From Pseudoxanthomonas yeongjuensis (GTDB taxonomy: Bacteria > Pseudomonadota > Gammaproteobacteria > Xanthomonadales > Xanthomonadaceae): 64,000 bases of DNA. Under the pieces are notes generated by a model. The model was not told the DNA's origin. It saw nothing but the letters and a program-made list of their open reading frames with translations, and searched no databases. Numbering within the stretch: the first letter of the stretch is position 1; each line of letters begins with the position of its first letter. The stretch lies in NCBI RefSeq assembly GCF_010093345.1, contig NZ_PDWT01000012.1, forward strand, positions 1 to 64,000, written 5' to 3'. Of the stretch, positions 2,196 to 42,060 are shown piece after piece. The translations under genes and the position numbers were made by a program.

Positions 2196-3416
2196 TCAAT
2201 TGCTGGAATACGGACCGGATATCGATTTCACCCGCATGGCTTCATCCGAATCATCGAGGACGAACACGCGATAGCTCGCACCGCCACGCTCGACGCGAAT
2301 GACCACGTGCCCTTGCGTGCTCGCCGCCTTCTCGATGTTGTAGGTGGTCTTGAACGTGGCAGCGGAGACGTTGGTGATGAAGATGTCGCGCGGTCCCGGC
2401 CAAGTGGCTGCGGACGTCATGCGCTGATACGTGTTGACCGCCGGATGGCCCTCGGCGCGCGCGCCGACCACGATCACGCGCGGTTGCAGCAGGCGCAGGA
2501 ACGGGGCGCTGTTCGCATCCCAACTGCCATGGTGGTTCGCCTTCATCGCATCGACCTTGCCGTTGGCTTGAGCCACCGCGGCCTCGACATTGTCGAGCGA
2601 CGGGTCGACCTCGATATCCTGCGCGGACAGATCGCCACCGCTGAAATAATCGAACGCGCCGTAACTGAGCTTGAAGGCGATGCTCAACGCGTTCTCTCCC
2701 GGAGCCTCTTCACGGCTGAAAACGGGGCGCGTTCGCGTGCCTTCACCCGTCCACACCCGGCCATTGGCATACACGTTGCGGATCGCGAACTGCGGATACG
2801 CGTTCGGCTCGTGCAGCAGCTTCAGTTGGTCGTTGCGGCCAGGCTGGAACTGTTCGACCTTCAACCCGCGATGCTTCGCTTGCCAATCGAGGAAACTGCG
2901 GTAATTGTCGATGGTGGGGTTCTTCAGCGGCGCCGGGTAGGCGTAATCCGGCCAGCCGCGATCGATCACGGTGCCGATGCGCAGGTGCTCGGCGACCTCG
3001 GTGATGCCGCTGAGCCGGTAGCCGTTCTTCGAGCGCGGCGAATCCTCCACGATCGCGCCCATGTGGTCGCCATGGAAGTGCGAAATCATCGCGTAGTCGA
3101 TTTGCCTGGCCGTGTCTTTTCCAGACGGCAACGGCAGCACCCGCTGCAGGTAACGGGCCACCCACTCGCCCGGTGCGCGCGAGGCGTCGGGCTTGGTTGG
3201 CAGCGAAAACGGCGGCCTCTCCACCGTCTTGCCGCTCATGTCCACCAGCAGGCTGGTGCCATCGGGCAGGATCAGCAGCGAGGACTCGCCGCGGCCGGTG
3301 TTGATGTGGTGGATGTCGAGTTCGCCTTGCCGCCATGCGGGCAGTGGCTGGCCGATGTCCTGCGCGTGCGCGTTGGCGGCCAGCAGCAGCGCGGCGAAAG
3401 ATATGGTTTTACGCAT
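2196..3416 (-). CDS. Exported metallo-beta-lactamase-fold hydrolase (ComEC C-domain-like)
   Basis: A 406-residue protein with a cleavable signal peptide (hydrophobic stretch ending A-N-A-H-A-Q around residue 19). The metal motif HFHGDH is at residues 113-118, and a later HHGSWD motif near residue 290 resembles the soluble hydrolase domain of ComEC/Rec2 proteins. Family members are dinuclear-zinc hydrolases acting on phosphodiesters, thioesters or nucleic acids; the substrate here is unknown. It starts 9 bases after the phosphoesterase gene and is the last gene of a leftward run with two other exported phosphoesterases and a TonB-dependent receptor. That context favours a phosphodiester or nucleic-acid substrate (inference). 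Confidence 0.8.
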   Translation of the reverse strand: MRKTISFAALLLAANAHAQDIGQPLPAWRQGELDIHHINTGRGESSLLILPDGTSLLVDMSGKTVERPPFSLPTKPDASRAPGEWVARYLQRVLPLPSGKDTARQIDYAMISHFHGDHMGAIVEDSPRSKNGYRLSGITEVAEHLRIGTVIDRGWPDYAYPAPLKNPTIDNYRSFLDWQAKHRGLKVEQFQPGRNDQLKLLHEPNAYPQFAIRNVYANGRVWTGEGTRTRPVFSREEAPGENALSIAFKLSYGAFDYFSGGDLSAQDIEVDPSLDNVEAAVAQANGKVDAMKANHHGSWDANSAPFLRLLQPRVIVVGARAEGHPAVNTYQRMTSAATWPGPRDIFITNVSAATFKTTYNIEKAASTQGHVVIRVERGGASYRVFVLDDSDEAMRVKSISGPYSSN

Positions 3417-3425
3417 CGGCGTCGC

Positions 3426-4742
3426 TCAGTCGCGCGTGTCGAAGCGCTGGTGGAAATCGCGCAGCGGCAAGCTGAATTCGTCGCGCTGCAGGAATTCCGC
3501 ATCGCCGATCCCGGCTTGCCCGTCCTGCCGCTTGTACCAGCTGGCGTACTGCTTCAATTCGGACGAGAACTTCTTGTAGTGCGTGGAATAGGTGCGCACC
3601 TCGATGCTCGGCTGCGCACCGTCGACCTTGAATTTCATCAGTCGCAGCCAACCGTCGCCGACGGCGTTGTTGTCGTCGGCGGAGGTGCGGCCGGCGTCTT
3701 TCGCGGTTTGCCATCGGCTCTGGTAATCGGCCATCACCTGATGCACCTCGAGGCCGTGCAGGTTTTCGGCGATGCTGTGGCCCTGGCCGCCGACATGACC
3801 GCTGAGCACGAGGAAAATCTGGTCGTGGCGGCCGAGGAATTCGTTCCACATCATCTGCGGGTTGTTGTCGCGATGGTCGAGGATGCTGTTGTCCGTATTC
3901 GAGGCGCGGATGAAATCGCCGTTGCGCTCGAGGTAGCCGTGGGTGGTGACGATGGTCGGCACACCCTTGTACTTCTCGATAATGCGTTCGGCCCAGGCCA
4001 GCGAGGCATCCGGCGCGTAGTACTGCAAGCCGATATGCAGGAAGCGGCATTGGCCGGCAACGAAGATCTGCGCGCTGTCGGCGCCGCCGTCGTTGGAAGC
4101 GACGTACCACGGTTGGCCATCGAAGAATTCCGACTGCGGCGAGAACGCGGAGCGGTAGCCGCTGAAACCGCCGACATGGCGGATACCGCCGCGCATCCTG
4201 CCGGTCTCCGGGTTCGGCTGCGGCGGATGCTCCGGGCTGGTCCACAGCGCGTCGTAATCGTGGTTGCCGGGAATCACCGAGAACGGCAGCTTCCCCTTGA
4301 GAGACCGAAAGCCCTTCACCACGCTCGGGATTTCCCATTCGAGCACCTTTTGCTTCTTCGGCGAATGCGCCACTTCACTGCCATTCGGATTCGGCATCCA
4401 CTTGAAGCCGCGCGCCTCGTGCTCCGGATCCATCCACTCCGAATAGTGCTGCCACAAATCGCCCAGATGGGTGGCGAACACGATTTCGCCGCCGCTGCTT
4501 TTCGCGTTTGCGGCGATCCAGCGCATCTGCTCGTAATACTGCTCGACCGCGTCGAACGGATAGCCTTCCGCCTTCTGGTGGCGGTAGTCCACGTAGTTCT
4601 GCGTGTCCGGGATCGCCGCGATGGTGAACTCGCCGCAATCACCGCGCTTCCATTGGTGCGGTTTCCATGGTTGCTTCGCTTCGTCCGCCAATACCGGCGT
4701 GGCAAGCAGGGCAATGGTGAGGCACAGGACTTGCGTTTTCAT
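3426..4742 (-). CDS. Exported calcineurin-like metallophosphoesterase
   Basis: A 438-residue protein with a signal peptide (MKTQVLCLTIALLATPVLA). The metallophosphoesterase signatures occur in order: IPDTQNY (44-50, D-x-Q instead of the commoner D-x-H), GDLW (94-97), PGNHDYD (158-164), VTTHG and SGHVGGQGH towards the C-terminus. Members hydrolyse phosphomono- or diesters with two metal ions. The start ATG is at 4742; an in-frame GTG at 4748 would overlap the PhoD stop codon as GTGA. Either way the gene is tightly coupled to phoD upstream and to the MBL-fold hydrolase downstream. Export and neighbours suggest periplasmic or extracellular phosphate-ester breakdown. The exact substrate is not evident. 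Confidence 0.82.
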   Translation of the reverse strand: MKTQVLCLTIALLATPVLADEAKQPWKPHQWKRGDCGEFTIAAIPDTQNYVDYRHQKAEGYPFDAVEQYYEQMRWIAANAKSSGGEIVFATHLGDLWQHYSEWMDPEHEARGFKWMPNPNGSEVAHSPKKQKVLEWEIPSVVKGFRSLKGKLPFSVIPGNHDYDALWTSPEHPPQPNPETGRMRGGIRHVGGFSGYRSAFSPQSEFFDGQPWYVASNDGGADSAQIFVAGQCRFLHIGLQYYAPDASLAWAERIIEKYKGVPTIVTTHGYLERNGDFIRASNTDNSILDHRDNNPQMMWNEFLGRHDQIFLVLSGHVGGQGHSIAENLHGLEVHQVMADYQSRWQTAKDAGRTSADDNNAVGDGWLRLMKFKVDGAQPSIEVRTYSTHYKKFSSELKQYASWYKRQDGQAGIGDAEFLQRDEFSLPLRDFHQRFDTRD

Positions 4743-4744
4743 GT

Positions 4745-6334
4745 TCACGCTTTATCGATCTCCGGTTTGCCGCGTTCCACGGCGAGTTTGGCCACGACCG
4801 ACTTCTTGCCCCCGGCTTCGGTGATCCTGTCGACGGCGATGACGCTGGTTTTCCATTCGTCGCGGCCAATGTCGAACACCTGGTAGCCGCGGCGATCGTT
4901 GAACAGTACGTTGTGCGGGTTCTCGGCCAGGACGTTCTCCCAGCCCTTTGGCATGTCGCTGCCGTCGCCGCCGGAGGCGATTGAAGTAGCGACGAATTCG
5001 GCCGCGACCGGCTTGCTGGTGAGATCGTTGGGGTCGCGCGGGATCACCCCGGCGTGGTGCTTGTGCACGTCGCCGGTGGCGACGATGACGTTGCCCTTGG
5101 CGCGCCGCTCGATCAGGTCGACCACGCGCGCGCGCGCTTGCGGATAACCGCTCCACGAATCGGTATTGATCGCGCCGGCGGCGCGATTTTCCGGATATCT
5201 GTACGGCATCATCATCACTTGCTGCGCAAGCAGGTGCCAGCCGAAGTCCTCCTTCAGGCCCTCGCCGAGCCAGGCTTCCTGCGCGTCGCCGATGATCTGC
5301 TCCGGGCCTTGTTCGTCCAGCGGACGACACGGCTTCCTGCCGATCATGCTCGGGTCGCAACGCTGCTTGCTGCGGTATTGGCGCGTGTCCATCAGGTGCA
5401 CGCGCAGCAGCCGGCCGTAGTCGATGCGGCGGAACATGCGGATGCCCTGCGCGGTCGGAAACTGCGCGCGGCGCACCGGCATGTTCTCGTACCAGGCCTG
5501 CATCGCCACGGCGCGGCGCAGCGCGAACACTTCCGGCGGCGCGCCGTCCTGGTCGTTTTCGCCAGCCCAGTTGTTGTCGAACTCGTGGTCGTCCCAGGTC
5601 ATCAGGAATGCGGCGGCCGCGTGCGCGGTCTGCAAATCCAGATCGGACTTGTACTGCGCATAGCGGCGGCGGTAATCGTTCAAGGTGTAGATTTCATCGC
5701 CCACGTGCTGGCGCGCCATCCTGTTGCCGGCCGCGTCGATCACGAACTTGTCGTCCTTGCCGCGGCCTTCGTAAATGTAGTCGCCGTAGTGGAAAACGGC
5801 ATCGAGCTCCGGTTCCTGGCTCAGGTGCCTGTAGGCGGTGTACAAGCCGGCTTCGTAGTGCTGGCACCCGGCCACGCCGATGCGCAGTTGCTTCGGCTTC
5901 TCGCCGATCGCCGGCGTGGTGCGCGCACGGCCGACCGGGCTGGGCGGCTGGCCTCCGGCACTGAAGCGATACCAGTACGGGCGCGACGGCTTCAAGCCAT
6001 CCACTTCGACGTGCACACTGTGGCCCAGCTCCGGGCGTGCGATGGCTTCACCCTTGCGCACGATCCGCCTGAAACCCGGGTCCTCGGCCACGTCCCATTG
6101 CACGGCCACGCCGAGCATCGGCATGCCGCCGTTTTCCTCCAGCGGTCGCGGCGCGAGCCGCGTCCAGATCACAAAGCCGTCGGCGGCCGGCTCACCGGAC
6201 GCTACGCCGAGCGCGAACGGGTACCCGCAGAACTCTGGCGCGGCCCACAGCCTGCCCGGCTGCAGCCCGGCGAACAGGACCAGCGAGCCGGCGCCGAGCA
6301 GGAACTTGCGACGATCAAGGGGGATCGGTTTCAT
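4745..6334 (-). CDS. phoD: PhoD-family alkaline phosphatase, Tat-exported
   Basis: A 529-residue enzyme of the PhoD family: Ca/Fe-dependent phosphomono/diesterases exported folded. The N-terminus DRRKFLLGAG with a following hydrophobic stretch is a twin-arginine signal. A PhoD N-terminal beta domain (about residues 37-140) precedes the catalytic domain, with GDYIYEG (184-190), TWDDHEFDNNW (246-256) and a C-terminal GDVHKHHAG metal motif. The length agrees with the family. It lies 69 bases downstream of the TonB-dependent receptor gene and overlaps or abuts the next phosphoesterase gene, so all four are probably one transcript under the FecI/FecR pair. It likely releases phosphate from organic esters taken up or met at the surface. 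Confidence 0.88.
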   Translation of the reverse strand: MKPIPLDRRKFLLGAGSLVLFAGLQPGRLWAAPEFCGYPFALGVASGEPAADGFVIWTRLAPRPLEENGGMPMLGVAVQWDVAEDPGFRRIVRKGEAIARPELGHSVHVEVDGLKPSRPYWYRFSAGGQPPSPVGRARTTPAIGEKPKQLRIGVAGCQHYEAGLYTAYRHLSQEPELDAVFHYGDYIYEGRGKDDKFVIDAAGNRMARQHVGDEIYTLNDYRRRYAQYKSDLDLQTAHAAAAFLMTWDDHEFDNNWAGENDQDGAPPEVFALRRAVAMQAWYENMPVRRAQFPTAQGIRMFRRIDYGRLLRVHLMDTRQYRSKQRCDPSMIGRKPCRPLDEQGPEQIIGDAQEAWLGEGLKEDFGWHLLAQQVMMMPYRYPENRAAGAINTDSWSGYPQARARVVDLIERRAKGNVIVATGDVHKHHAGVIPRDPNDLTSKPVAAEFVATSIASGGDGSDMPKGWENVLAENPHNVLFNDRRGYQVFDIGRDEWKTSVIAVDRITEAGGKKSVVAKLAVERGKPEIDKA

Positions 6335-6403
6335 GTGGATTCCTCGGGTTCTGGAAACCGGGACCGGGCGCGCCTTGCGAGGCGTCCGGCCGGTTGCGGC
6401 CGC

Positions 6404-9400
6404 TTAGAAGCGCACGCGGATGCCGACCGATGCGCGGCGGCCGCTGGTGATGTAGATCTGGCTGTGGTGGCCTTTTTCGCCCAGGCCGACCGGGCCGTTC
6501 GAGTACACGGTGTTGCGGTTCTGGTTGAAGAGGTTGTTGACGCTGAAGTACGCCTCCAGGCCGAACCAGTTGCCCTTGGTCTTCTTGACCAAGGTCCAGC
6601 CGCCGGACATGTTCACTTCGAGGTAGTCGTCGAACGGCTGTTCCTGGTAGGGCAACGTATACGCGCCGTTGCCGTTGTCGACCTTGACCGCGGCGGTCGG
6701 GCCGCGATCCTTTTCATCGCTCCATACGGTGTTGAGGTTCAAGCGCGCCGGACCGTACTTCCAGCCGAGGCCGAAGCTGGCGACCTGCTTGGCCACGCGC
6801 TCGAAGGTTTCCGATGGATTGGTGTGGGTGTAGGAACCGCGCACGGTCATCCCGCTCAATGCGCCGGGCAGGTAATCCATGGCGTGGTTGAACTCGAACT
6901 CGTAGCCGTTGATGCTGATGTCGCGGTCGCTGTTGGCCGTGGTGACGACCAGGTCGATCGGCTCGTCGCCGTCGTAGCCGAAGTCCCCCGGAGTCATTGT
7001 GGCGGTGCTGATCAGGTCCTTGATCCTGTTGTGGAACAGGCCGAAGGCGATCAGGCCCACCGGCTCGAAGTACTGCGTCGCGCGGATCGAGAAGTTGTCC
7101 GAGTATTCCGGCCTCAGGTTCATGTTCGGCGCGGTGAGCACATTGCCGTCCTCGGTGCCGTAGTCGACCGACCACACGCCGGCCAGATCGCCCACTTCCG
7201 GGCGCATGATGGTCTTGCTGTAGCCGGCGTGGATGTCGAGGCTGTCGGTGACGCTGTATTTGACCGAAGCGCTCGGGAAGAAGTCGCTGTAGCTGCTCTT
7301 GGTTTGCTTGCGTGGATTGCTCAGGTACTGGTACTTCAGGCCGTCGACGGTGGTGGCGCGGCCGGTGCTGGCGCTGACCGCATAGCCGGCGGCGCGCACG
7401 TCGTCGGCACTGAGCGGATCGAAGTCATGGCCGGTTTCATTGGTCTGTTCCCAGCGGATGCCCGCCTGCGCCTTCAGCTTGTCGGTGAGGTCCGCGGTAC
7501 CCATGAAGTACACGGAATTGATGTTCTCGTCGATCCTGTTCGCGTTGGCGATGTTGGCGTTGTACCACTGCGCCGCGGTTTCGCTGCGCACCCATTGCTC
7601 CGGGTTGGCCTGCATCATCTGGTAGATCCTGGCCAGGCTGTAGACGTACAGGTCGCCGCCGCCCAGGGTGTTGACGGTCATGCCGGATTCGCCGCTGTGC
7701 CATTGGTTGGCGCTCTGCACTTCGCGCAGGAATTCGGCATTGGTCAGCGGGCCGTTGTAGGTCCAGATGTTGGCGTCGGAGGTGTTGGCGTATTCGTAAT
7801 CGGCGAAAGTGGATTTGGCGCCGGTCTTCCAGGCCACCGCCACGTCGCCGATGTCCTGGTAGAACTCGAAGTTGAGCGCGCCGCCGCGGTAATCCAGCTC
7901 CGCGGCGCTGCCGCTGGTGGTACGGATGCTCGGCCGGCTGGAAGAACCCAGTGCGCCGCTGTAATTGGCCAGCGTCCACGCTTCCGGCAGCGCCCAGTCG
8001 ACGCCGTCGATCTGTTGGATGTCCCAGTCCTGGTGCATCCAGTCGCTGCGCGAGGCGCTGTAGTTGCCCTTCGCGCTCATGGTGTTGAGCAAGTTGGAAA
8101 CCTGGCCCTTCTTGCCGGAGGCGTAGCGGCTGTTGGAGCTGGCCGAAAACAGGTTTCCGTCCAGCTTGAAGTTCTCGTTCTGCCAGACGAAGCGCGGCAC
8201 GAAGTTGCGCGAATAGCCGATCTTGTAGGTGTAGTTGGCGGCCTGGGTCAGGGTGTCGGTGCCGGCCGGGTAATGCGTGACCCAATCCTTCGAGGGATCG
8301 CCTTCATGCGGATTGGCGGCGGTGGCGCGCCCGTTGGTGAAGGTCGGGATGACCTGGCTCGGGTCGATGTCGCCGCGGCTGACGCTGGCGGTCAGCGACA
8401 GGATCAATTCATCGGTGGCCTTGAAGTCCGCGCTGAGCGAAGCGACGCGGCGGTTGTACTCGCGGTCATAGCCTGTGGCGGCGATCTGCGTCACCGCATA
8501 CGGATCCGGGCTGGTGGCGGTAGCCACGTAGTTGCGGCTGGAGTTGATCTGCACCTGCTCGACCAGATTGGTGATGCTGCTGATGCCGGCGGCGATGCCG
8601 AGGCGGTTGTCGAAGAACACGTCCGAGTAATTGATGCTGCTGGACGGAAGCCACTTGGTGTCGTAGCCGCCTTCCATCCAGCCGGTTTTCCTGCTGTCCC
8701 ACAGGCCGGAATGCGTGGTGCCGCCGAGCGAAACGACGATTTTCCGGCCCTTGGCGTCGAAGGCGTTCCTGGTGCGGATGTCGATGGTGCCGGCCGGCGC
8801 GTTGGCGTCCATGTCGGCGCTGGTGGTCTTGTTGATGCTGATCGAATCCACGCCGGCCAGCGCCGACTGCTCGAAGCTGAAGGTGCGCGAGCTGGCCGAG
8901 TTGGCGTCGATGCCAGGCAGGCTCACGCCGTTGAGGGTCACGCCCGTGTACTTGGCCGGCAGGCCGCGCAGGCTGATGTTGCGCGGCGCATCGTCGGCGA
9001 CCACATCGAAATCCACGCCCGGCATGTACTTCAGGAATTCGCCCGGGTTGCCATCGCCGATTTCGCCGAAGGATTCGGCCGACAGCGTGTTGGTGACGTT
9101 CATCGACGCGCGCTGCTCCATGATCGCCCGCGCATCGCCTTCGCGCGCGCCGATCGAGGTCACGGTATCGAGCGTGGCGGCATCGGCATTGGCCAACTCG
9201 CCGCCGGAAACGAACAGTTCGACCACCGGCGCAGCGGTTTCGCCGGCGCGCACGTCGATGCTGCGGCTGGCGGTGATGAAGCCGGTGAACTCCACGCTCA
9301 ACTGCTGGCTTCCGGCCGGCACGTCGTTGATGCGGAATTCGCCGCGATCGGTGGACGTGGCGACCTGGCGACCGTTCAATTTGATGCGCGCGTTGCGCAG

Positions 9401-9784
9401 GTATTCACCCGTCGCCGGATCGAGAATGACGCCGCTGATGGCGCCACTGCCAGCGGTTTGGCGGACTGAGGCGCTTTCCGACTTTTTTTGCAGCAGGACC
9501 ACCCCGCCCTCTTCCGACTTTATCTCCAGTCCGGCGGCATCCAGCAACTTGCGCAAGGCTTCGCGCACGTCCATTTCGCCGCTGATCGCGGGGATTTCAA
9601 CGCCCTCGAGCGAACCGGCGGGGGCGACGATCTGGATGCCGCCCTGGCGCGCCAGCTCCGGAATGGCGCTGACGGCCGGTTGCGCCGGCACGTCGAAGCG
9701 GCGTTGCTGCGCCATCGCGCCGGGAGCGGAAGACAGCGCCACGACGATGGCGCTGCTTAGCAGGAATTTCTTGTAACGGATCAT
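6404..9784 (-). CDS. TonB-dependent receptor/transducer with N-terminal STN signalling domain
   Basis: An 1126-residue outer-membrane receptor. Residues 1-25 are a signal peptide. Residues 28-98 form the secretin/TonB N-terminal (STN) domain that signals to FecR-type partners. About 112-195 is a carboxypeptidase-regulatory-like beta sandwich. The plug follows (about 230-345, with PRNISLRGLPAKYTGVTLNG), then the beta barrel, closing GRRASVGIRVRF with the terminal Phe expected of outer-membrane proteins. It lies 88 bases downstream of fecR, which fits FecA-like three-partner surface signalling, and upstream of three exported phosphoesterase-type genes. The barrel type matches large Xanthomonas/Caulobacter receptors for oligomeric substrates. 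The ligand is unknown; a phosphate-containing compound is my inference from neighbours. Confidence 0.9.
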   Translation of the reverse strand: MIRYKKFLLSSAIVVALSSAPGAMAQQRRFDVPAQPAVSAIPELARQGGIQIVAPAGSLEGVEIPAISGEMDVREALRKLLDAAGLEIKSEEGGVVLLQKKSESASVRQTAGSGAISGVILDPATGEYLRNARIKLNGRQVATSTDRGEFRINDVPAGSQQLSVEFTGFITASRSIDVRAGETAAPVVELFVSGGELANADAATLDTVTSIGAREGDARAIMEQRASMNVTNTLSAESFGEIGDGNPGEFLKYMPGVDFDVVADDAPRNISLRGLPAKYTGVTLNGVSLPGIDANSASSRTFSFEQSALAGVDSISINKTTSADMDANAPAGTIDIRTRNAFDAKGRKIVVSLGGTTHSGLWDSRKTGWMEGGYDTKWLPSSSINYSDVFFDNRLGIAAGISSITNLVEQVQINSSRNYVATATSPDPYAVTQIAATGYDREYNRRVASLSADFKATDELILSLTASVSRGDIDPSQVIPTFTNGRATAANPHEGDPSKDWVTHYPAGTDTLTQAANYTYKIGYSRNFVPRFVWQNENFKLDGNLFSASSNSRYASGKKGQVSNLLNTMSAKGNYSASRSDWMHQDWDIQQIDGVDWALPEAWTLANYSGALGSSSRPSIRTTSGSAAELDYRGGALNFEFYQDIGDVAVAWKTGAKSTFADYEYANTSDANIWTYNGPLTNAEFLREVQSANQWHSGESGMTVNTLGGGDLYVYSLARIYQMMQANPEQWVRSETAAQWYNANIANANRIDENINSVYFMGTADLTDKLKAQAGIRWEQTNETGHDFDPLSADDVRAAGYAVSASTGRATTVDGLKYQYLSNPRKQTKSSYSDFFPSASVKYSVTDSLDIHAGYSKTIMRPEVGDLAGVWSVDYGTEDGNVLTAPNMNLRPEYSDNFSIRATQYFEPVGLIAFGLFHNRIKDLISTATMTPGDFGYDGDEPIDLVVTTANSDRDISINGYEFEFNHAMDYLPGALSGMTVRGSYTHTNPSETFERVAKQVASFGLGWKYGPARLNLNTVWSDEKDRGPTAAVKVDNGNGAYTLPYQEQPFDDYLEVNMSGGWTLVKKTKGNWFGLEAYFSVNNLFNQNRNTVYSNGPVGLGEKGHHSQIYITSGRRASVGIRVRF

Positions 9785-9872
9785 GGTCTCGGCTCTTGGA
9801 TGGCCGCGTGGGGATGCGGCAATGGGAGTTGAGAGGTATGGCCCGTCCGCTTCCGCTATCCGTCAAAAAAAT

Positions 9873-10847
9873 TTAATGTGCGCTGCCGATGACGATGCTC
9901 CCGCGCCCCTGCTGCACGCGCGCATCGAATACTTCGGCCACGGCAAGGCTGAAACCCACCGGATTGTTGGTGGCGAACAGGCCCGCCACCTGCATCTTCG
10001 CCAGTCGCGGATCGGCGATGACAATGCGCGTATCGCTATAACGGGCGAACTCGGCGACGGCCTGGCCCAGGGTTTCGCCTTGCAAGGCGATCTTGCCTTC
10101 GCGCCACGCGAGTTCGCGCGCCAGCCTGTCTGCAGCCACCGTTTCGACGTCGACGACCGCATCTTCGCCCACGGGCAGCAGGGCGCGGGTATTGGCATCC
10201 AGCCGCGTGCGTGCGCCGGGCAATTCCGCGTGTCCTTGCAGCACTACCATTTGCGTGGCCTGCGCCGGCAGCTTGCGCACGACGAAGGATGCCGCCGCGG
10301 CGCGGACCCGGCGCCCGTCCACTTCGATCATCACCGCCCCGTTCGCATTCGCCGAGACCACGAACAGTACTTCGCCGCGCACGACGCGTACGCGCTGCTG
10401 GCCAGCGTCGTCATGCACCTCGACCCGGCTGTCGGTGTTGAGGGTCATCGAATTGCCGCCGGCCAGCGGCACCAGGCGCATCTCGCCCTTGACCGTGGCG
10501 TAGGCGGTCGGCATGTGCAACGCGGCCGTCAACACCACCAGCAGCAGCGAGGCCGCCATCGCACCGCCCCATTCCAGCAGGCATCGGCGGGTGGAGCCGG
10601 GCCGCCGAGAAGGCTCCGCTCCAGTCCGGAACTCCTCCGGATCGTATCGCGGACCAAGCGCGCTGGCGGATTCGCTGCGCAGCCATAGCGCCCTGGCGCG
10701 CAGGTAAGCCCCTCGCCGCCGCGCATCGCCGGCCAGCCATCGCTTCAGTTCCTCGGCCTCCGCGGAAGACAGCCGCCCGCGGTCCCACCGCGCCACCCAC
10801 TGTGCGGCGGTCCGTTCAATCTCCCGGCTGGTTTCGCGATCGTCCAT
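9873..10847 (-). CDS. FecR-family anti-sigma factor/signal relay
   Basis: A 324-residue inner-membrane protein. Residues 13-55 (AAQWVARWDRGRLSSAEAEE...) are the cytoplasmic DUF4880-type sigma-binding segment, 94-112 a single membrane helix, about 118-215 the periplasmic FecR domain, and the C-terminal 70 residues the STN-interacting DUF4974-like module. The ATG at 10847 is chosen because the DUF4880 region begins there; it overlaps the 3' end of the sigma-factor gene by 32 bases, implying coupled translation. With the sigma factor and the STN receptor downstream it forms a complete FecI-FecR-FecA-type circuit: ligand binding outside frees or activates the sigma factor inside. Confidence 0.88.
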   Translation of the reverse strand: MDDRETSREIERTAAQWVARWDRGRLSSAEAEELKRWLAGDARRRGAYLRARALWLRSESASALGPRYDPEEFRTGAEPSRRPGSTRRCLLEWGGAMAASLLLVVLTAALHMPTAYATVKGEMRLVPLAGGNSMTLNTDSRVEVHDDAGQQRVRVVRGEVLFVVSANANGAVMIEVDGRRVRAAAASFVVRKLPAQATQMVVLQGHAELPGARTRLDANTRALLPVGEDAVVDVETVAADRLARELAWREGKIALQGETLGQAVAEFARYSDTRIVIADPRLAKMQVAGLFATNNPVGFSLAVAEVFDARVQQGRGSIVIGSAH

Positions 10848-11457
10848 TGGCGCGCCCTTTTTCTCTCTCCAATTGCTTGGAGGTTTTGACAGGTGGGTTT
10901 CCGCCACTGGCGAACCATTCCCCCAGCCAGCGGATGCCACGGGCGATGTGTTTCTCGACGGTGCTTTCGGAAAGGTCCATGCGCACGGCGATTTCGCGCT
11001 GGGACAATTCATGGATGCGGCGCAAAACGAAGGCTTCCCGGGTCTGGCCCGGCATGGACGCGATTATTTCTGCCAGTCGGCGCAGCTCATCGCGGCTGGC
11101 GGCGCTTTGCTCCGGGGTGGCGGCCTCGTCGGTGAATTCGAACCGCTCGAGGTCCTCGACCGCCAGAATGGGCACGATTCGCGACCGACGGATGTTGCGC
11201 ACCACCAGCGAACGGGCTATCTGGAACAGGTAGGCACGCGGATGCTGGATGTCGTCCACCCGCTCGCGCTCTGCCAGCACCGCGTAGCTTTCCTGGATGA
11301 TGTCATCCACTCCCGCCGCATCGATGCTGCGCCGACACGACAACCAGCCGCGCAGTGCCGCCTCGTGCGGCAGGACATGGTGCAGGAACCAGCGCGTCCG
11401 CTCCTCTGCATCGGCAGCGACCATCGACCGTTGCCCTTGTTGCGAATTCCGCTCCAT
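10816..11457 (-). CDS. ECF sigma factor, FecI type
   Basis: A 213-residue extracytoplasmic-function sigma factor. Region 2 is visible (DDIIQESYAVLAERERVDDI, then HPRAYLFQIARSLVVRNIRR), as is region 4 (MPGQTREAFVLRRIHELSQR, then EIAVRMDLSESTVEKHIARG). An ATG at 11457 is used; a GTG immediately before it (11460) and a further ATG at 11424 are possible. It is transcribed with fecR (32-base overlap) and is expected to activate the downstream receptor and phosphoesterase genes. No ECF promoter consensus could be assigned with confidence in the 88-base gap upstream of the receptor. Confidence 0.9.
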   Translation of the reverse strand: MERNSQQGQRSMVAADAEERTRWFLHHVLPHEAALRGWLSCRRSIDAAGVDDIIQESYAVLAERERVDDIQHPRAYLFQIARSLVVRNIRRSRIVPILAVEDLERFEFTDEAATPEQSAASRDELRRLAEIIASMPGQTREAFVLRRIHELSQREIAVRMDLSESTVEKHIARGIRWLGEWFASGGNPPVKTSKQLEREKGRANGRSRNQPGD

Positions 11458-11825
11458 CACGCAAATCCCCGGGCACGTACAGGCGACAAACCTCCGAAGC
11501 TAGACGCTGAACATGACGGTTGCGTGTATAGAGCCCACAAGTGCAGGCGTATATGCGAGCCGATTGGATACCGGCATCCTTGTTCGCCGACAACGACAAG
11601 CGCTACTCCATCAGTGCGCCATCGCTGGCGCCTTCACTGGTTTGCTGGAATACGCCGAATAACGACATTCCATCCTTGCGAACGGCCGTTTCGGGGGCGG
11701 AACCGACCATCGCCAGCCCGATCAAGGCACATGGCTTGCCGGTCTCCTGGCTCCAGCCTGCCTTGCCGATTCCAGTGATACGCGCATCATGCCGGCTCGC
11801 CGGCAATTGGCCTTACGATACCGGC
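11458..11825. other. 368-base gap with no convincing gene between the sigma factor and aceK
   Basis: The gap lies between two divergent genes, so promoters for both should be here. A plus-strand frame from 11541 runs into aceK, and a minus-strand frame (11603-11806, TTG start) is open for 67 codons. Neither has a ribosome-binding site or a recognisable product. A small GCCGGC-TC-GCCGGC hairpin lies around 11791-11804 just ahead of aceK. I could not assign clear -35/-10 boxes. The stretch may be decayed coding sequence. Confidence 0.5.
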
Positions 11826-13532
11826 ATGCAGCCCGCCGACGCCTTCGCCACCATCATCCGCGACGCCTTCGCCGACTATCACGCGCGCTTCGCCGATATC
11901 ACCCGGCGCGCGCGGCGGCGGTTCGAGACCCGCGACTGGGCGGCGGCGCGCATCGACGCGGTGGAGCGCATCGAGCTGTACGACCAGTGCGTCGGCGAAT
12001 GCATGCTGCGGCTGGAGGCGAACCTGCAGCAGGGCGCCCACGACCGCGAACTGTGGTCGGCGATCCGCGACAGCTACGGGCGCCTGATCGAGGGCCTGAT
12101 CGACCGCGAACTGTTCAAGACCTTCTACAACACCCTGACCCGGCGCTTCTTCCGCACCCGCGGCGTGGACGCGGCGATCGAATTCATCGCCATGGACATC
12201 GAGCCCACCGATGCCATCACCCATCCGGTCGGGCGCCACAGCTACGCGGTGTCGGAACTGCGGCCGGTGGACAGCTTCACCCGGCTGCTCGGCGACTACC
12301 GCTTCGACGTGCCGTACGCGCACCGCACGCGTTGCGCCGCGGCGATAGTCATTCGCCTGCAGGACGACCTGGCCCACTGGGGACCGAACCCGGTGCGTTC
12401 GGTGGAGCTGCTGGAAACCGTGTTCTACCGCGAGCGCCGTGCCTATCTGGTCGGGCGCGTGTTCGGCGAGCACCGCTTCTCGCCGTGCGTCATCGCCCTG
12501 GTCAACGACGAACGCGGCCTGCGCGTGGACGCGGTGCTGACCCATCGCGCCGACGTCGCCCATCTCTTCAGTTATTCGCGCAGCTATTTCCACGCCGATC
12601 TGGGCACGGTCGGCGATGCGGTGGTGTTCCTGCGCACCTTGTTGCCGGTCAAGCCCATCGACGAGATCTACACCGTGCTCGGTCGGGCCAAGCAGGGCAA
12701 GACCGAGCGCTTCCGCACCTTCTTCCGCCACTTCGCCGCCCTGCCGCAGGAACCGTTGACCCAGGCCGAGGGCGAGCGCGGCATGGTCATGGCGGTGTTC
12801 ACCCTGCCCAGCTATCCGCTGGTGTTCAAGGTGATCCGCGACCGCTTCGCCTATCCCAAGGAAATGAACCGCGCACAGGTCGAGGGCAAGTACGCGCTGG
12901 TGTTCCTGCACGACCGCGTCGGCCGCCTGGTCGATGCGCAGCCGTACCGCTTCCTGCGCTTCCCGCGTTCGCGCTTCTCCACAGGTTTGCTTGAGGAACT
13001 GCTGCAGACCTGCGCCCACGGCATCACCGTCGATGGCGACGACATCGTCGTGCACCTGTGCTACGTGGAACGGCGCATGCGCCCGCTGAACCTTTACCTG
13101 CGCGAACAGGCGCCGGAAGCCGCGCGCCTGGCGGTGATCGACTACGGCCAGGCGATCAAGGACCTGGCCCGCAACAACATCTTCCCCGGCGACCTGCTGC
13201 TGAAGAATTTCGGCGTGTCCCGGCACGGGCGCGCGGTGTTCTACGACTACGATGAGCTGTGCCTGATCACCGAATGCAATTTCCGCGCGATCCCGCAGGC
13301 CCGCCACCATGAAGAGGAAATGGACGATGGCTGGTTCTACGCCGGACCCAACGACATCTTCCCCGAGCAGTTCCCGAAATTCCTCGGCCTGTCGCCACCG
13401 CTGATGGCGGCGCTGAAACACGCGCATGGCGAGATCTTCGACCCGGAATGGTGGCGCCAGCTGCAGGCGCGGCTGCGCGATGGCGACTATCCGGACACGC
13501 CGCCGTATCCGGACGCGGCGCGGCTGGCCTGA
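11826..13532 (+). CDS. aceK: Isocitrate dehydrogenase kinase/phosphatase
   Basis: A 568-residue bifunctional enzyme (the E. coli protein is about 578) that phosphorylates isocitrate dehydrogenase to divert isocitrate to the glyoxylate bypass and reverses this as a phosphatase. Recognisable AceK segments include [19 protein letters not shown] near the N-terminus, [47 protein letters not shown] and, near the C-terminus, [40 protein letters not shown], which carries the kinase-like catalytic and metal residues. The frame is open upstream to 11541, but family similarity begins at the ATG at 11826. It is not linked to aceA/aceB in this window and is followed convergently by an aldo/keto reductase. 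Confidence 0.95.
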
Positions 13533-37836: not shown

Positions 37837-40350
<2,514 letters not shown>

Positions 40351-40366
40351 ATCCAGCGAAGCGGCA

Positions 40367-41185
40367 GTGATCGAAGGGCGGGGGCCACCGCCGCTTCCGG
40401 CGCCGGTCCCGCGCCCGGTTCGGCCGCTCGCGGGATTCTTTCTGGACCTGGCGATCGCCATCGGCGCGATGCTGTTCCTGTCCGTGGCCTGCGGAATGGC
40501 CTGGGCCATGTTCGAAGGCGTGCGGTTCGCGCTGCAGGGCGGTGCTGCACCGGATCCGGCGTCGCTCATGCGCTCGATTGGCCAGCCAGGCGCCCTCGCC
40601 ATGATCTGGATGACTCTGGTCAGCACCGGCGGCGCGGCCCTGGTGGTGTATTTGTGGCGTCGCCGGGCCACGCGCGCCGAACGCACGGCTTCGATCCAGG
40701 CAGCGCGGAAACTCTCCACCTGGGGCTGGGTGCTCGCCACCGCTGCGGCCACGTTCCTGTTCAGCACCGCGATCACCAGCCTGTCGCAGTCGCTGGGCGT
40801 GAAACCGGAACCGACCAACCTGGCGATCATCGAAGCGGCGTTCCTCACCAACCCGGTGTTCCTTGCCCTGTTCGGCGTATTGATCGCGCCTGCCTACGAG
40901 GAACTGCTGTTCCGCAGGGTGCTGTTCGGCCGCCTGTGGGCCGCCGGACGCCCCTGGCTGGGCGTGGCGCTGAGCAGCGCTGCCTTCGCCCTGATGCATG
41001 AAATCCCGGGCACCACCGGCAACAGCTGGCAGGCGACGGGCGTGCTGTGGCTGACCTACGGATTCATGGGCGCGGCCTTCGCCCTGGTGTACTGGCGAAC
41101 CCGCACGCTGTGGGCTTCGATCGCCGCGCATGCCCTGAACAACGCCGTGGCCCTGGCCCTGGTCAGGTTGTATGGCGGCGGCTGA
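40367..41185 (+). CDS. CPBP-family intramembrane metalloprotease (CAAX protease-like)
   Basis: A 272-residue multi-pass membrane protein. The CPBP (Abi) motifs are visible: [17 protein letters not shown] with the E-E-x-x-x-R pattern near residue 178, FALMHEIPG with the His of motif 2, and [18 protein letters not shown] with H-x-x-x-N of motif 3. Members cleave within membranes or process prenylated or bacteriocin-like peptides; the substrate is unknown here. The start is GTG at 40367, 16 bases after gyrB, so it may ride on the gyrB transcript. The N-terminal 20 residues are Pro-rich. Confidence 0.88.
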
Positions 41186-41253
41186 ACCCGTGGGTTTGAC
41201 GAAAAGTTAAGGCAGAAACCAGCACACTTGCCGCCCGAATCAGGGGTATCGAG

Positions 41254-42060
41254 ATGAAACGTTGGTTTCTTTCGGCCGCAATCATCGCCGCATTGGCGGG
41301 TTGCGCCACCACCACTTCTTCCACGGGTCGCACGCAACTCGTCGGTGGCGTGTCCCAGGAACAACTCAACCAGTTGGGCGTGCAGGCTTTCACCGAGGCC
41401 AAGAGCAAGGGCCCGCTGAGCAACGATGCGAAGCAGAACGCCTACGTGCGCTGCGTGGTCAATGCGCTGGTCCGGCAGTTGCCGGCGCAGAACCGGTCGG
41501 TGGCGTGGGAAACCGCGATCTTCGCCGACAAGGAACCCAATGCCTTCGCCTTGCCGGGTGGAAAGGTCGGGGTGAATACCGGCATCTTCACCGTGGCCAG
41601 GAACCAGGATCAGCTCGCGGCGGTGCTGGCGCACGAGATCGGTCACGTGGTCGAGCATCACCACGACGAACGCATCACCCGGCAGATGGGCGCGCAGGCC
41701 GGCCTCGGCATTGCCGGCGCCGTGCTCGGCGCCCGTTACGGCCAAGGCGCGGCCGATGCGACCAGCCAGTTCGGAGGTTTGGCCGCGCAAGGGCTGTTCC
41801 TGTTGCCGGGTTCGCGCACTCAGGAAAGCGAAGCCGATGTGGTTGGCCAACGGTTGATGGCCCAGGCCGGCTTCGATCCCGCGCAGGCGGTCAACCTGTG
41901 GCAGAACATGATCGCCGCCGGTGGCAGTCGTCCACCGCAATGGCTGTCCACCCATCCCGATCCCCAGTCCCGCATCCAGGAATTGCGCAGCCGTGCGGGA
42001 ACCCTGGCGCCGAGTTACCAGCAGGCGCGCGCCGCAGGGCGCGTGCCGAAGTGTGGATGA
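41254..42060 (+). CDS. M48-family metalloprotease, lipoprotein
   Basis: A 268-residue zinc protease of the LoiP/YcaL/BepA-like envelope group. The N-terminal lipobox is AALAGCA (Cys near 17). The zinc motif is HEIGH (127-131) with a His/Asp-rich continuation VVEHHHDE, and the third ligand is in QESEADVVGQRLMAQAGFD. The C-terminus has THPDPQSRIQELRSRAG. Such lipoproteins degrade or refold misassembled outer-membrane proteins. It stands between the CPBP protease gene and a TPR gene, each with its own gap; a strong hairpin follows the stop codon. Confidence 0.92.
   Translation: MKRWFLSAAIIAALAGCATTTSSTGRTQLVGGVSQEQLNQLGVQAFTEAKSKGPLSNDAKQNAYVRCVVNALVRQLPAQNRSVAWETAIFADKEPNAFALPGGKVGVNTGIFTVARNQDQLAAVLAHEIGHVVEHHHDERITRQMGAQAGLGIAGAVLGARYGQGAADATSQFGGLAAQGLFLLPGSRTQESEADVVGQRLMAQAGFDPAQAVNLWQNMIAAGGSRPPQWLSTHPDPQSRIQELRSRAGTLAPSYQQARAAGRVPKCG

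Follow-up and report, generated by a model that had tools for sequence, protein, structure and literature searches.

Organization of the locus

The window, a 64,000-base stretch of Pseudoxanthomonas yeongjuensis (GCF_010093345.1, contig NZ_PDWT01000012.1, positions 1 to 64,000 of the forward strand), carries six genes between positions 2196 and 11457, all on the reverse strand (Table 1). All six reading frames reported in a first-pass annotation were verified, and the 32-base overlap that it gave for the sigma factor and FecR genes was borne out, with the FecR start codon read in the sequence, as was the 9-base gap between the calcineurin-like phosphoesterase gene (mpe) and the gene for the metallo-beta-lactamase (MBL)-fold hydrolase. 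The FecR and receptor genes are separated by 88 bases (9785 to 9872) and the receptor and PhoD genes by 69 bases, and PhoD and mpe overlap by 4 bases.

Table 1. Genes and putative regulatory sites of the cassette in the window
Feature	Position	Strand	Remarks
ECF sigma factor, FecI type	10816..11457	-	ATG start; GTG at 11460 also possible
FecR-type anti-sigma factor	9873..10847	-	one membrane span (by eye)
TonB-dependent receptor	6404..9784	-	1126 aa; signal peptide (by eye), STN, CarboxypepD_reg, Plug, beta-barrel
PhoD-family alkaline phosphatase/phosphodiesterase	4745..6334	-	Tat-like signal RRKFLLGAG (by eye)
mpe, calcineurin-like phosphoesterase	3426..4748	-	secretion signal (by eye)
MBL-fold hydrolase	2196..3416	-	secretion signal (by eye)
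Conserved block	9849..9877	-	ATTAAATTTTTTTGACGGATAGCGGAAGC; FecR-receptor gap, overlaps FecR stop
Site aligned with the pho box of relatives	11513..11530	-	window retains second half-site CCGTCAT only (11513 to 11519)

Assignment of the encoded proteins

The sigma factor matches Sigma70_r4_2 (5e-16) and Sigma70_r2 (2.5e-5) in Pfam and reaches no equivalog cutoff among the 25 NCBIfam families listed. The anti-sigma factor matches FecR (Pfam, E = 1.4e-10), with DUF4880 just under cutoff. The STN domain of the receptor was detected at an E value of 1.8e-6, yet with 28.1 bits against a Pfam cutoff of 28.4; its other three domains were also matched in Pfam, and it scored 281.7 of 310 bits against TIGR01782. 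STN was found at E ≤ 0.01 in all five scanned receptors encoded with FecIR (two above the Pfam cutoff) and in none of the four for which no FecIR was found. An ECF sigma factor, a FecR protein and an STN receptor, the genes expected for surface signaling, are encoded together here, with STN slightly under cutoff.

PhoD was identified by its PhoD (3.8e-94) and PhoD_N domains in Pfam, together with a twin-arginine export motif seen by eye; it matched alkaline phosphatase D (PDB 2yeq) at 4.4e-129 and scored 499.9 of 1000 bits against the NCBIfam PhoD model, under the equivalog cutoff. The assignment of mpe as calcineurin-like is backed by the motifs PDTQ, GD, GNHD and GH (by eye) alongside a weak Pfam match (Metallophos, 7.4e-4; 20.4 of 21.5 bits, below cutoff). 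A profile of two mpe sequences hit no solved structure at E 0.1, and no characterized relative of mpe was found.

The MBL-fold protein also falls below the Pfam cutoff (Lactamase_B, 20.1 of 22.7 bits). The motifs HxHxDH, Asp262 and His295/296 are invariant across 42 aligned sequences, whose profile matched Pce (1wra, 1.6e-12) best among PDB entries, followed by the ComEC nuclease domain (9ic4, 5.2e-10). Its identity is secured by the invariant motifs and the profile match to Pce: similarity to this phosphorylcholine esterase of teichoic acid (Pce/CbpE) is significant and the metal-binding motifs are conserved, with HxHxDH, GGD and HH aligning in two matched stretches to which the alignment is confined. 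No characterized member was found for the secreted MBL family.

Recurrence of the cassette in relatives

The arrangement sigma factor-FecR-receptor-PhoD-MBL recurs in three congeners (L009, L010 and L011) and in Stenotrophomonas nitritireducens (L034), and an Altererythrobacter metagenome-assembled genome (L022) holds all six genes. Identities to the window proteins are 60 to 65% for the sigma factor in the first four and 47% in L022, and 74 to 75%, 56% and 44% for the receptor orthologs. mpe was not found in L009, L010, L011 and L034, that is, in four of the five relatives. Some of the genome scans scored no more than four candidates per genome, and absences there are soft. The enzyme genes of L022 are rearranged (receptor-MBL-mpe-PhoD). 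Thus, of the six-gene order for which the first-pass annotation had proposed a search, recurrence as a unit stands, while literal conservation is ruled out by the missing mpe and the reordering in L022. mpe is an optional member of the cassette. Gene calling was crude, and start codons and some neighbors in GC-rich loci may be wrong; cassette genes were taken from tblastn, the gene caller having overlooked MBL in L011 and mpe in L014.

DNA identity between L009 and L010 is restricted to 4228 to 12333, which corresponds to the cassette, and four genes from its flanks in the window were not found near the cassette in any of the five relatives. Because the same genes reappear together amid changed surroundings, their linkage is more than chance. 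The MBL proteins of the six cassettes form a single clade (support 99/95). The six genes form a discrete cassette, and the coupling of a FecI/FecR/STN-receptor unit to phosphoesterases with export signals is supported. A plasmid collection contained no near DNA match to the cassette, and plasmid carriage was rejected.

Relatives of mpe were identified in L014 (59%), L022 (61%) and L111 (49%), the last adjoining a TonB receptor and GDPD. Two further relatives (49%) are from Sphingobium; their annotated surroundings contain a TonB receptor in one case only, at a distance of more than 8 kb, and neither phosphorus nor FecIR genes, while a third record carried no annotation. The MBL family is far wider, with at least 78 loci, of which at least 59 are strong loci in named genomes, in at least five phyla. 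Seventeen of the 59 strong loci listed have PhoD/mpe, GDPD, PI-PLC, AP/NPP or aminoethylphosphonate genes within 4 kb (one, L067, counted on a weak generic aminotransferase match) and 42 have none of these; these are raw counts, with the neighbor list drawn from the same loci. In other phyla, some MBL relatives adjoin GDPD, PI-PLC, alkaline phosphatase superfamily or aminoethylphosphonate catabolism genes; some loci adjoin GH127, sulfatase or other genes.

Putative regulatory sites

Searched with mismatches allowed, the textbook pho consensus had no match near the cassette of the window and was inseparable from chance in short regions; a genus-specific matrix built from pst/oprO promoters was adopted instead. 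Scores at the sigma gene were 12.0 to 16.0 in L009, L010, L011 and L034, the site upstream of this gene being in each the best of the whole locus (rank 1 of 38,000 to 42,000 positions). This pattern was never reproduced in all four when the motif was permuted (499 permutations) or when the spacer was set to any other length between 0 and 11, the test covering just these loci, picked after the locus-wide scan. The boxes do not amount to four independent cases, as L009 to L011 are congeners and L009 and L011 share 91.7% DNA identity. The score in L022 is marginal (9.1; P per region, 0.045; rank 9), and the sigma promoter of the window has no recognizable pho box (3.2; P per region, 0.52; rank 84 in the first 20 kb). 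Pho-like sites scoring at least 12 were also present in three of the 11 other FecR loci of the genome, upstream of the sigma frame in L125 and elsewhere in L121 and L129. The suggestion of the first-pass annotation that this locus differs from Pho-regulon control is thus unsupported in the relatives, four of five having a pho box at the sigma gene; the window copy has none that is recognizable. To judge from these sites, the cassette looks tied to phosphate hunger in close relatives.

A search of the FecR-receptor gap for a conserved motif, advised in the same annotation, yielded a promoter-like block, a cluster of columns invariant in five of five aligned loci, with similar sequence in L022. 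The only exact copy of TGACNNATNGNGGAAG in the genome is the one in this block, and the other 11 FecR loci lack the core of the block. The block is a candidate sigma-dependent promoter or regulator site. It was rejected as a pho box: the reverse strand scores 10.6 to 10.7 in L009, L010, L011 and L034, but not in the window or L022, and the site is oriented away from the receptor gene.

Proposed function and alternatives

The cassette probably serves to detect, at the cell surface, a molecule that contains phosphorus, and to produce a receptor for its uptake together with two or three exported enzymes that break it down. Kinship of the MBL-fold protein with Pce, together with the neighbors of some of its relatives, favors a phosphodiester or phosphonoester as its substrate; the phosphorylated polymer or diester suggested earlier fits in its phosphodiester form. 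On balance, though with considerable room for error, we lean toward a self-contained cassette for phosphodiester scavenging that is surface sensed and, in most relatives, PhoB gated. From the genes and sites described above we infer its ligand, signaling, enzyme activities, export, promoter use and PhoB binding. A phosphodiester oligomer or headgroup-type fragment would bind the receptor, whose STN domain would signal via FecR to the sigma factor, which in turn would drive transcription of receptor-PhoD-(mpe)-MBL, starting at a promoter between the FecR and receptor genes. Exported MBL and mpe would open diester bonds, PhoD would cleave diesters and monoesters to yield phosphate, and the receptor would import the fragments. 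As PhoB appears to gate sigma production in most relatives, the cassette would fire there only with phosphate short and substrate present.

A narrower form of the phosphodiester reading, which we consider possible but on the whole unlikely, takes the targets to be foreign polymers or lipids with a glycerophospho- or phosphocholine-type diester, such as Gram-positive teichoic acids or phospholipid headgroups, with a Pce-like MBL and a teichoicase-like PhoD. Among solved structures, Pce lies closest to the MBL-fold protein, although that match spans two stretches only, and the window PhoD is close to 2yeq; teichoic acids are the presumed target of Bacillus subtilis PhoD, but CamPhoD, another member of the family, cleaves monoesters at least 150-fold faster than test diesters (PMC6950083, in part). 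GDPD adjoins mpe in L111, and GDPD or PI-PLC is found near the MBL relatives L030, L038, L041, L049, L052, L057, L059, L066 and L073, though in L041 the PI-PLC is 7.9 kb away, and the window cassette itself has no GDPD, PI-PLC or choline gene. Use of extracellular nucleic acid or nucleotides, with a ComEC-like nuclease whose products PhoD and mpe dephosphorylate, would suit the second-best kind of solved MBL relative and is the less probable of these two; Pce outscores ComEC, the cassette lacks nucleoside or nucleotide genes, and such a neighbor was noted, by eye, in one MBL relative (L066).

That the MBL-fold protein sets free 2-aminoethylphosphonate or another phosphonate, with a phosphonoglycan or phosphonolipid as its substrate, is suggested by Flavobacteriaceae, where MBL adjoins PbfA (L039, L042, L044, L045 and L063), and by Chitinophagaceae, where it lies near Phn-HD, PhnX-like and TIGR03364 genes (L043 and L076). 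We regard this reading as improbable for the cassette: the cassette contains no phosphonate gene, PhnW exceeded its cutoff in none of four genomes (the window genome and three congeners), and six of these seven MBL proteins were placed in the tree, all outside the cassette clade. Finally, the locus might be an ordinary FecIR-controlled receptor for iron or another nutrient, with the hydrolases adjoining by accident; the host genome has 12 FecR and 59 receptor plug matches, and FecI/FecR is mostly linked to iron (PMC1790865, in part). Tight gene spacing, pho boxes in four relatives and the continued company of hydrolases and receptor in five relatives despite changed flanks all speak against it, and we consider it the least probable of these readings.

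If phosphodiester scavenging is correct, the kind of dedicated organic-phosphorus import-and-digest locus described in Flavobacterium, equipped with a surface-signaling regulator of its own, also exists outside the Bacteroidota, here joined by a pho box in the majority of relatives; the secreted MBL family (at least five phyla) and the mpe family would likewise gain a testable function. In soil and water, organic phosphodiesters make up a large pool of phosphorus. More speculatively, and with rather low confidence in the whole, a widespread, undescribed secreted family of Pce-like MBL proteins may, in several phyla, free phospho- or phosphono-headgroups of polymers or lipids, each clade being linked to its own outer-membrane importers and downstream pathways. 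The studied cassette would then be under an AND gate, in which PhoB (phosphate hunger) drives production of the sigma factor and its release depends on a surface ligand; the window copy would have lost its phosphate input and be left with the ligand as its only signal, as would suit a carbon source.

Comparison with known systems

In FecIR-FecA of Escherichia coli, as in the cassette, a sigma factor, an anti-sigma factor and an STN-type receptor occur with a promoter before the receptor gene; unlike the cassette, that system handles iron citrate, without hydrolases. The carbohydrate utilization loci of Xanthomonas campestris are named CUT. The former is among the closest known systems (review PMC9249621, in part). 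The latter are likewise receptor-plus-degradation loci, with many such receptors per bacterium, but target carbohydrates, and the words "phytase" and "phosphodiesterase" are absent from the main text describing them (PMC1790865, in part). PUMA3 (VreA-VreI-VreR) of Pseudomonas aeruginosa shares a surface-signaling sigma/anti-sigma pair, which is expressed only with PhoB and when phosphate is low, with pho boxes at the promoters; unlike the receptor of the cassette, VreA is described as seemingly periplasmic and probably not itself an uptake protein, and the passages on PUMA3 mention neither PhoD nor MBL (PMC4971064, in part).

In Flavobacterium johnsoniae and its relatives, the phosphate utilization system (PUS) loci also combine TonB-dependent outer-membrane uptake genes, an ECF sigma and/or FecR-like regulator, and periplasmic phosphodiesterases or a phosphatase; they are reported to be induced when phosphate is depleted, and some clusters carry phosphonate enzymes (PMC8115612, in part). 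With a TonB receptor, phosphoesterases and an ECF/FecR regulator, the cassette has the same makeup. PUS loci differ in their SusC/SusD-type pairs, in belonging to Bacteroidota and in their enzymes (PI-PLC, CpdA-like and PhoA); passages of that paper name no PhoD-MBL-mpe set, and "metallo" is absent from its main text (PMC8115612, in part). SusD families match none of the six cassette proteins in Pfam. The proposal of an undescribed system holds in part: the general idea is known from Flavobacterium PUS and Pseudomonas PUMA3, and joining TonB transport, ECF sigma/FecR control and phosphoesterases was described in Flavobacterium, as far as these sources were covered, whereas this set of parts appears undescribed.

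Anatomy and recurrence of the cassette

All six leftward frames of the first-pass annotation, encoding an ECF sigma factor, FecR, an STN-bearing TonB receptor, PhoD, a calcineurin-like phosphoesterase (mpe) and a secreted MBL-fold hydrolase (MBL), were present as described in the window, which corresponds to G000:C3:1-64000 of a 3.94-Mb draft genome (G000) that protein similarity suggests lies near Stenotrophomonas. Pfam matches backed the sigma factor, FecR, the CarboxypepD_reg-Plug-barrel arrangement of the receptor, and PhoD; the STN domain of the receptor fell just under the Pfam cutoff, and mpe and MBL gave Pfam family matches below the cutoff only. The window PhoD matched the solved PhoD structure 2yeq with an E value of 4.4e-129. 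A LysR-type gene, convergent from the opposite side, was left out of the unit.

Positions and junctions of the cassette and of related loci
Feature	Position	Detail
FecR start	10847	32-base overlap with sigma gene
FecR-receptor gap	9785-9872	88 bases
Receptor-PhoD gap		69 bases
PhoD-mpe overlap		4 bases
mpe-MBL gap		9 bases
L009 versus L010 DNA similarity	4228 to 12333	two adjoining pieces, corresponding to the cassette
L125, another sigma-FecR-receptor locus of G000	G000:C21:500645-503793	pho-box-like site at position 594, with its start 84 bases upstream of the sigma frame
L100, second copy of an STN-less receptor	G040:C20:84000-103000	44% to the window receptor

Among 150 relatives searched, MBL was identified in six (the window genome included), mpe in two, and the receptor at an E value of ≤1e-150 in five, with at most four candidates scored per genome. 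When 369 genomes sampled evenly across the class were searched with the MBL profile, only the window genome matched at E ≤1e-20; a scan of named genomes for MBL returned at least 78 loci, 59 of them strong (L022 to L080) among the matches listed. The six-gene order was conserved in part: three congeners (L009, L010 and L011) and Stenotrophomonas nitritireducens (L034) carry sigma-FecR-receptor-PhoD-MBL without mpe, and an Altererythrobacter MAG (L022) has, if its binning is correct, the complete six-gene set, arranged as sigma-FecR-receptor-MBL-mpe-PhoD. Smaller sets were found in L014, from another genus of the family (receptor-PhoD-mpe, without sigma-FecR or MBL), L012 (a different receptor, a weakly similar sigma-FecR pair and MBL) and L013 (MBL without the remaining genes). 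From these sequence comparisons, the gene set behaves as a discrete cassette occupying different places, because the DNA similarity between L009 and L010 coincides with the cassette and none of four window flank genes was found near any of the five relatives that carry it. Phylogenetically, the MBLs of the six cassettes group together in a single clade (support, 99/95), with a Verrucomicrobiia MAG as its sister (96/89). The cassette is real and conserved as a unit. Relatives of mpe (49%) were also observed on the Sphingobium plasmids pRSMS1 and pEP2, which are typed as conjugative and have transposase genes nearby.

Candidate regulatory sequences and probable surface signaling

A matrix for PhoB-type sites (pho boxes) was built from 12 sites chosen by score and by eye from pstS/oprO regions of the window genome and three congeners. 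Sense-strand sites were found upstream of sigma in L009 (14.2), L010 (16.0), L011 (15.5) and L034 (12.0), with chance figures per scanned region of 0.001 to 0.008; L022 scored 9.1 (0.045) and the window 3.2 (0.52). In the first four loci this site was the best of 38,000 to 42,000 positions on both strands of the whole stretch, compared with rank 9 in L022 and rank 84 in the first 20 kb of the window. For these four loci, picked after the locus-wide ranking, none of 499 column-permuted motifs placed its best site there in all four (one did so in three), and of spacers from 0 to 11 only a spacer of 4 did. As L009 to L011 are congeners, the four loci perhaps amount to two or three independent cases. 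Because of these sites, the earlier contrast with Pho-regulon control fails for most relatives. Sense sites scoring ≥12 were also present in 3 of 11 other FecR loci of G000, namely, L125 (14.3), L121 (14.1) and L129 (12.7), the latter two elsewhere than upstream of the sigma frame; such sites are therefore not exclusive to the cassette. The best pho-like site of L111, where the neighbors of an mpe relative are a GDPD gene and a receptor recognized by eye, lies in the mpe-receptor gap; in L014 none was found there.

The FecR-receptor gap, which had been proposed for a motif search, contains a block with an invariant ATnAAnTTTTnnTGACnnATnGnGGAAGC in five aligned loci, and a similar stretch is present in the L022 gap. 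The block core pattern occurs exactly once in G000, at the cassette, and is absent from the remaining 11 FecR loci; at ≤2 mismatches it was no commoner than its reversed control.

The receptors of the window, L009, L010, L034 and L022, all accompanied by sigma-FecR, gave STN matches at E ≤0.01; L010 and L034 were above the Pfam cutoff and the others below. The same scan found no STN in the receptors of L014, L100, L023 and L031, and tblastn with window proteins found no sigma-FecR pair in those stretches. The L011 receptor, outside the scanned set, aligns from residue 1. This co-occurrence is as expected of a surface-signaling receptor. The receptor copy in L100 has no PhoD, mpe or MBL in its stretch, and the top-scoring pho-like site is immediately upstream. 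Across G000, 59 receptor plug and 12 FecR matches were counted, the window FecR scoring lowest of the 12.

Kinship of MBL and candidate substrates

The best solved match to the MBL profile (42 sequences) was the phosphorylcholine esterase Pce (1wra; 1.6e-12, two stretches), followed by ComEC (9ic4; 5.2e-10), and the alignment shows no variation at the HxHxDH residues, Asp262 or His295. Neighbors of MBL relatives include GDPD (L052, L066 and L049; within a larger protein in L073; by similarity in L030, L057 and L059) and PI-PLC (L038, together with an alkaline phosphatase fragment, and L041 at 7.9 kb). A listed phosphorus-type gene lies within 4 kb of MBL in 17 of the 59 strong loci among the matches listed (counting L067, a weak generic aminotransferase match, and excluding L073), a pattern rather than a statistic, as the gene list was drawn from the same loci and contigs are of unequal length. 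The remaining 42 have no listed gene within 4 kb, and some loci have GH127, sulfatase or other genes as neighbors.

Aminoethylphosphonate was considered as a substrate. PbfA is found near MBL in L039 (above the NCBIfam cutoff) and, by similarity, in L042, L044, L045 and L063; Phn-HD, PhnX-like and TIGR03364 genes occur in L076 (TIGR03364 alone above the cutoff) and, by similarity, in L043. PhnW was not detected above the cutoff in G000 or in any of three congeners, which speaks against this substrate here. All seven of those Flavobacteriaceae (L039, L042, L044, L045 and L063) and Chitinophagaceae (L043 and L076) loci combine an MBL relative with AP/NPP-type and aminoethylphosphonate catabolism genes, and SusC-SusD-like genes were found in six (not in L045), making them candidates for the import of phosphonate-bearing polymers. 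Some stretches, from Bacteroidales, Planctomycetota, Opitutae and one Kiritimatiellae MAG, contain two or three copies of MBL (L028, L029, L054, L055, L064, L065, L074, L075, L077, L079 and L080); in L065 a GH127 gene follows MBL, a hint of a different substrate.

Proposed function and comparison with known systems

The anatomy, recurrence, domain co-occurrence, motif conservation and kinship of the cassette were observed; for its ligand, activity and regulation, which we infer, the best reading is phosphodiester scavenging that is ligand sensed and, in most relatives, phosphate gated. A surface ligand would be sensed to control the cassette, the receptor would act as both sensor and importer, and phosphate would gate expression in most relatives. 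The MBL family is of interest beyond the cassette.

No description of this gene set was found in the open-licence PMC papers searched. Flavobacterium PUS loci already unite phosphoesterases with TonB transport and ECF/FecR regulators in a setting of phosphate depletion (PMC8115612); PUMA3 of P. aeruginosa is a surface-signaling sigma factor coupled to PhoB (PMC4971064); and the receptor-based sugar loci of Xanthomonas are the sugar counterpart of the cassette (PMC1790865).
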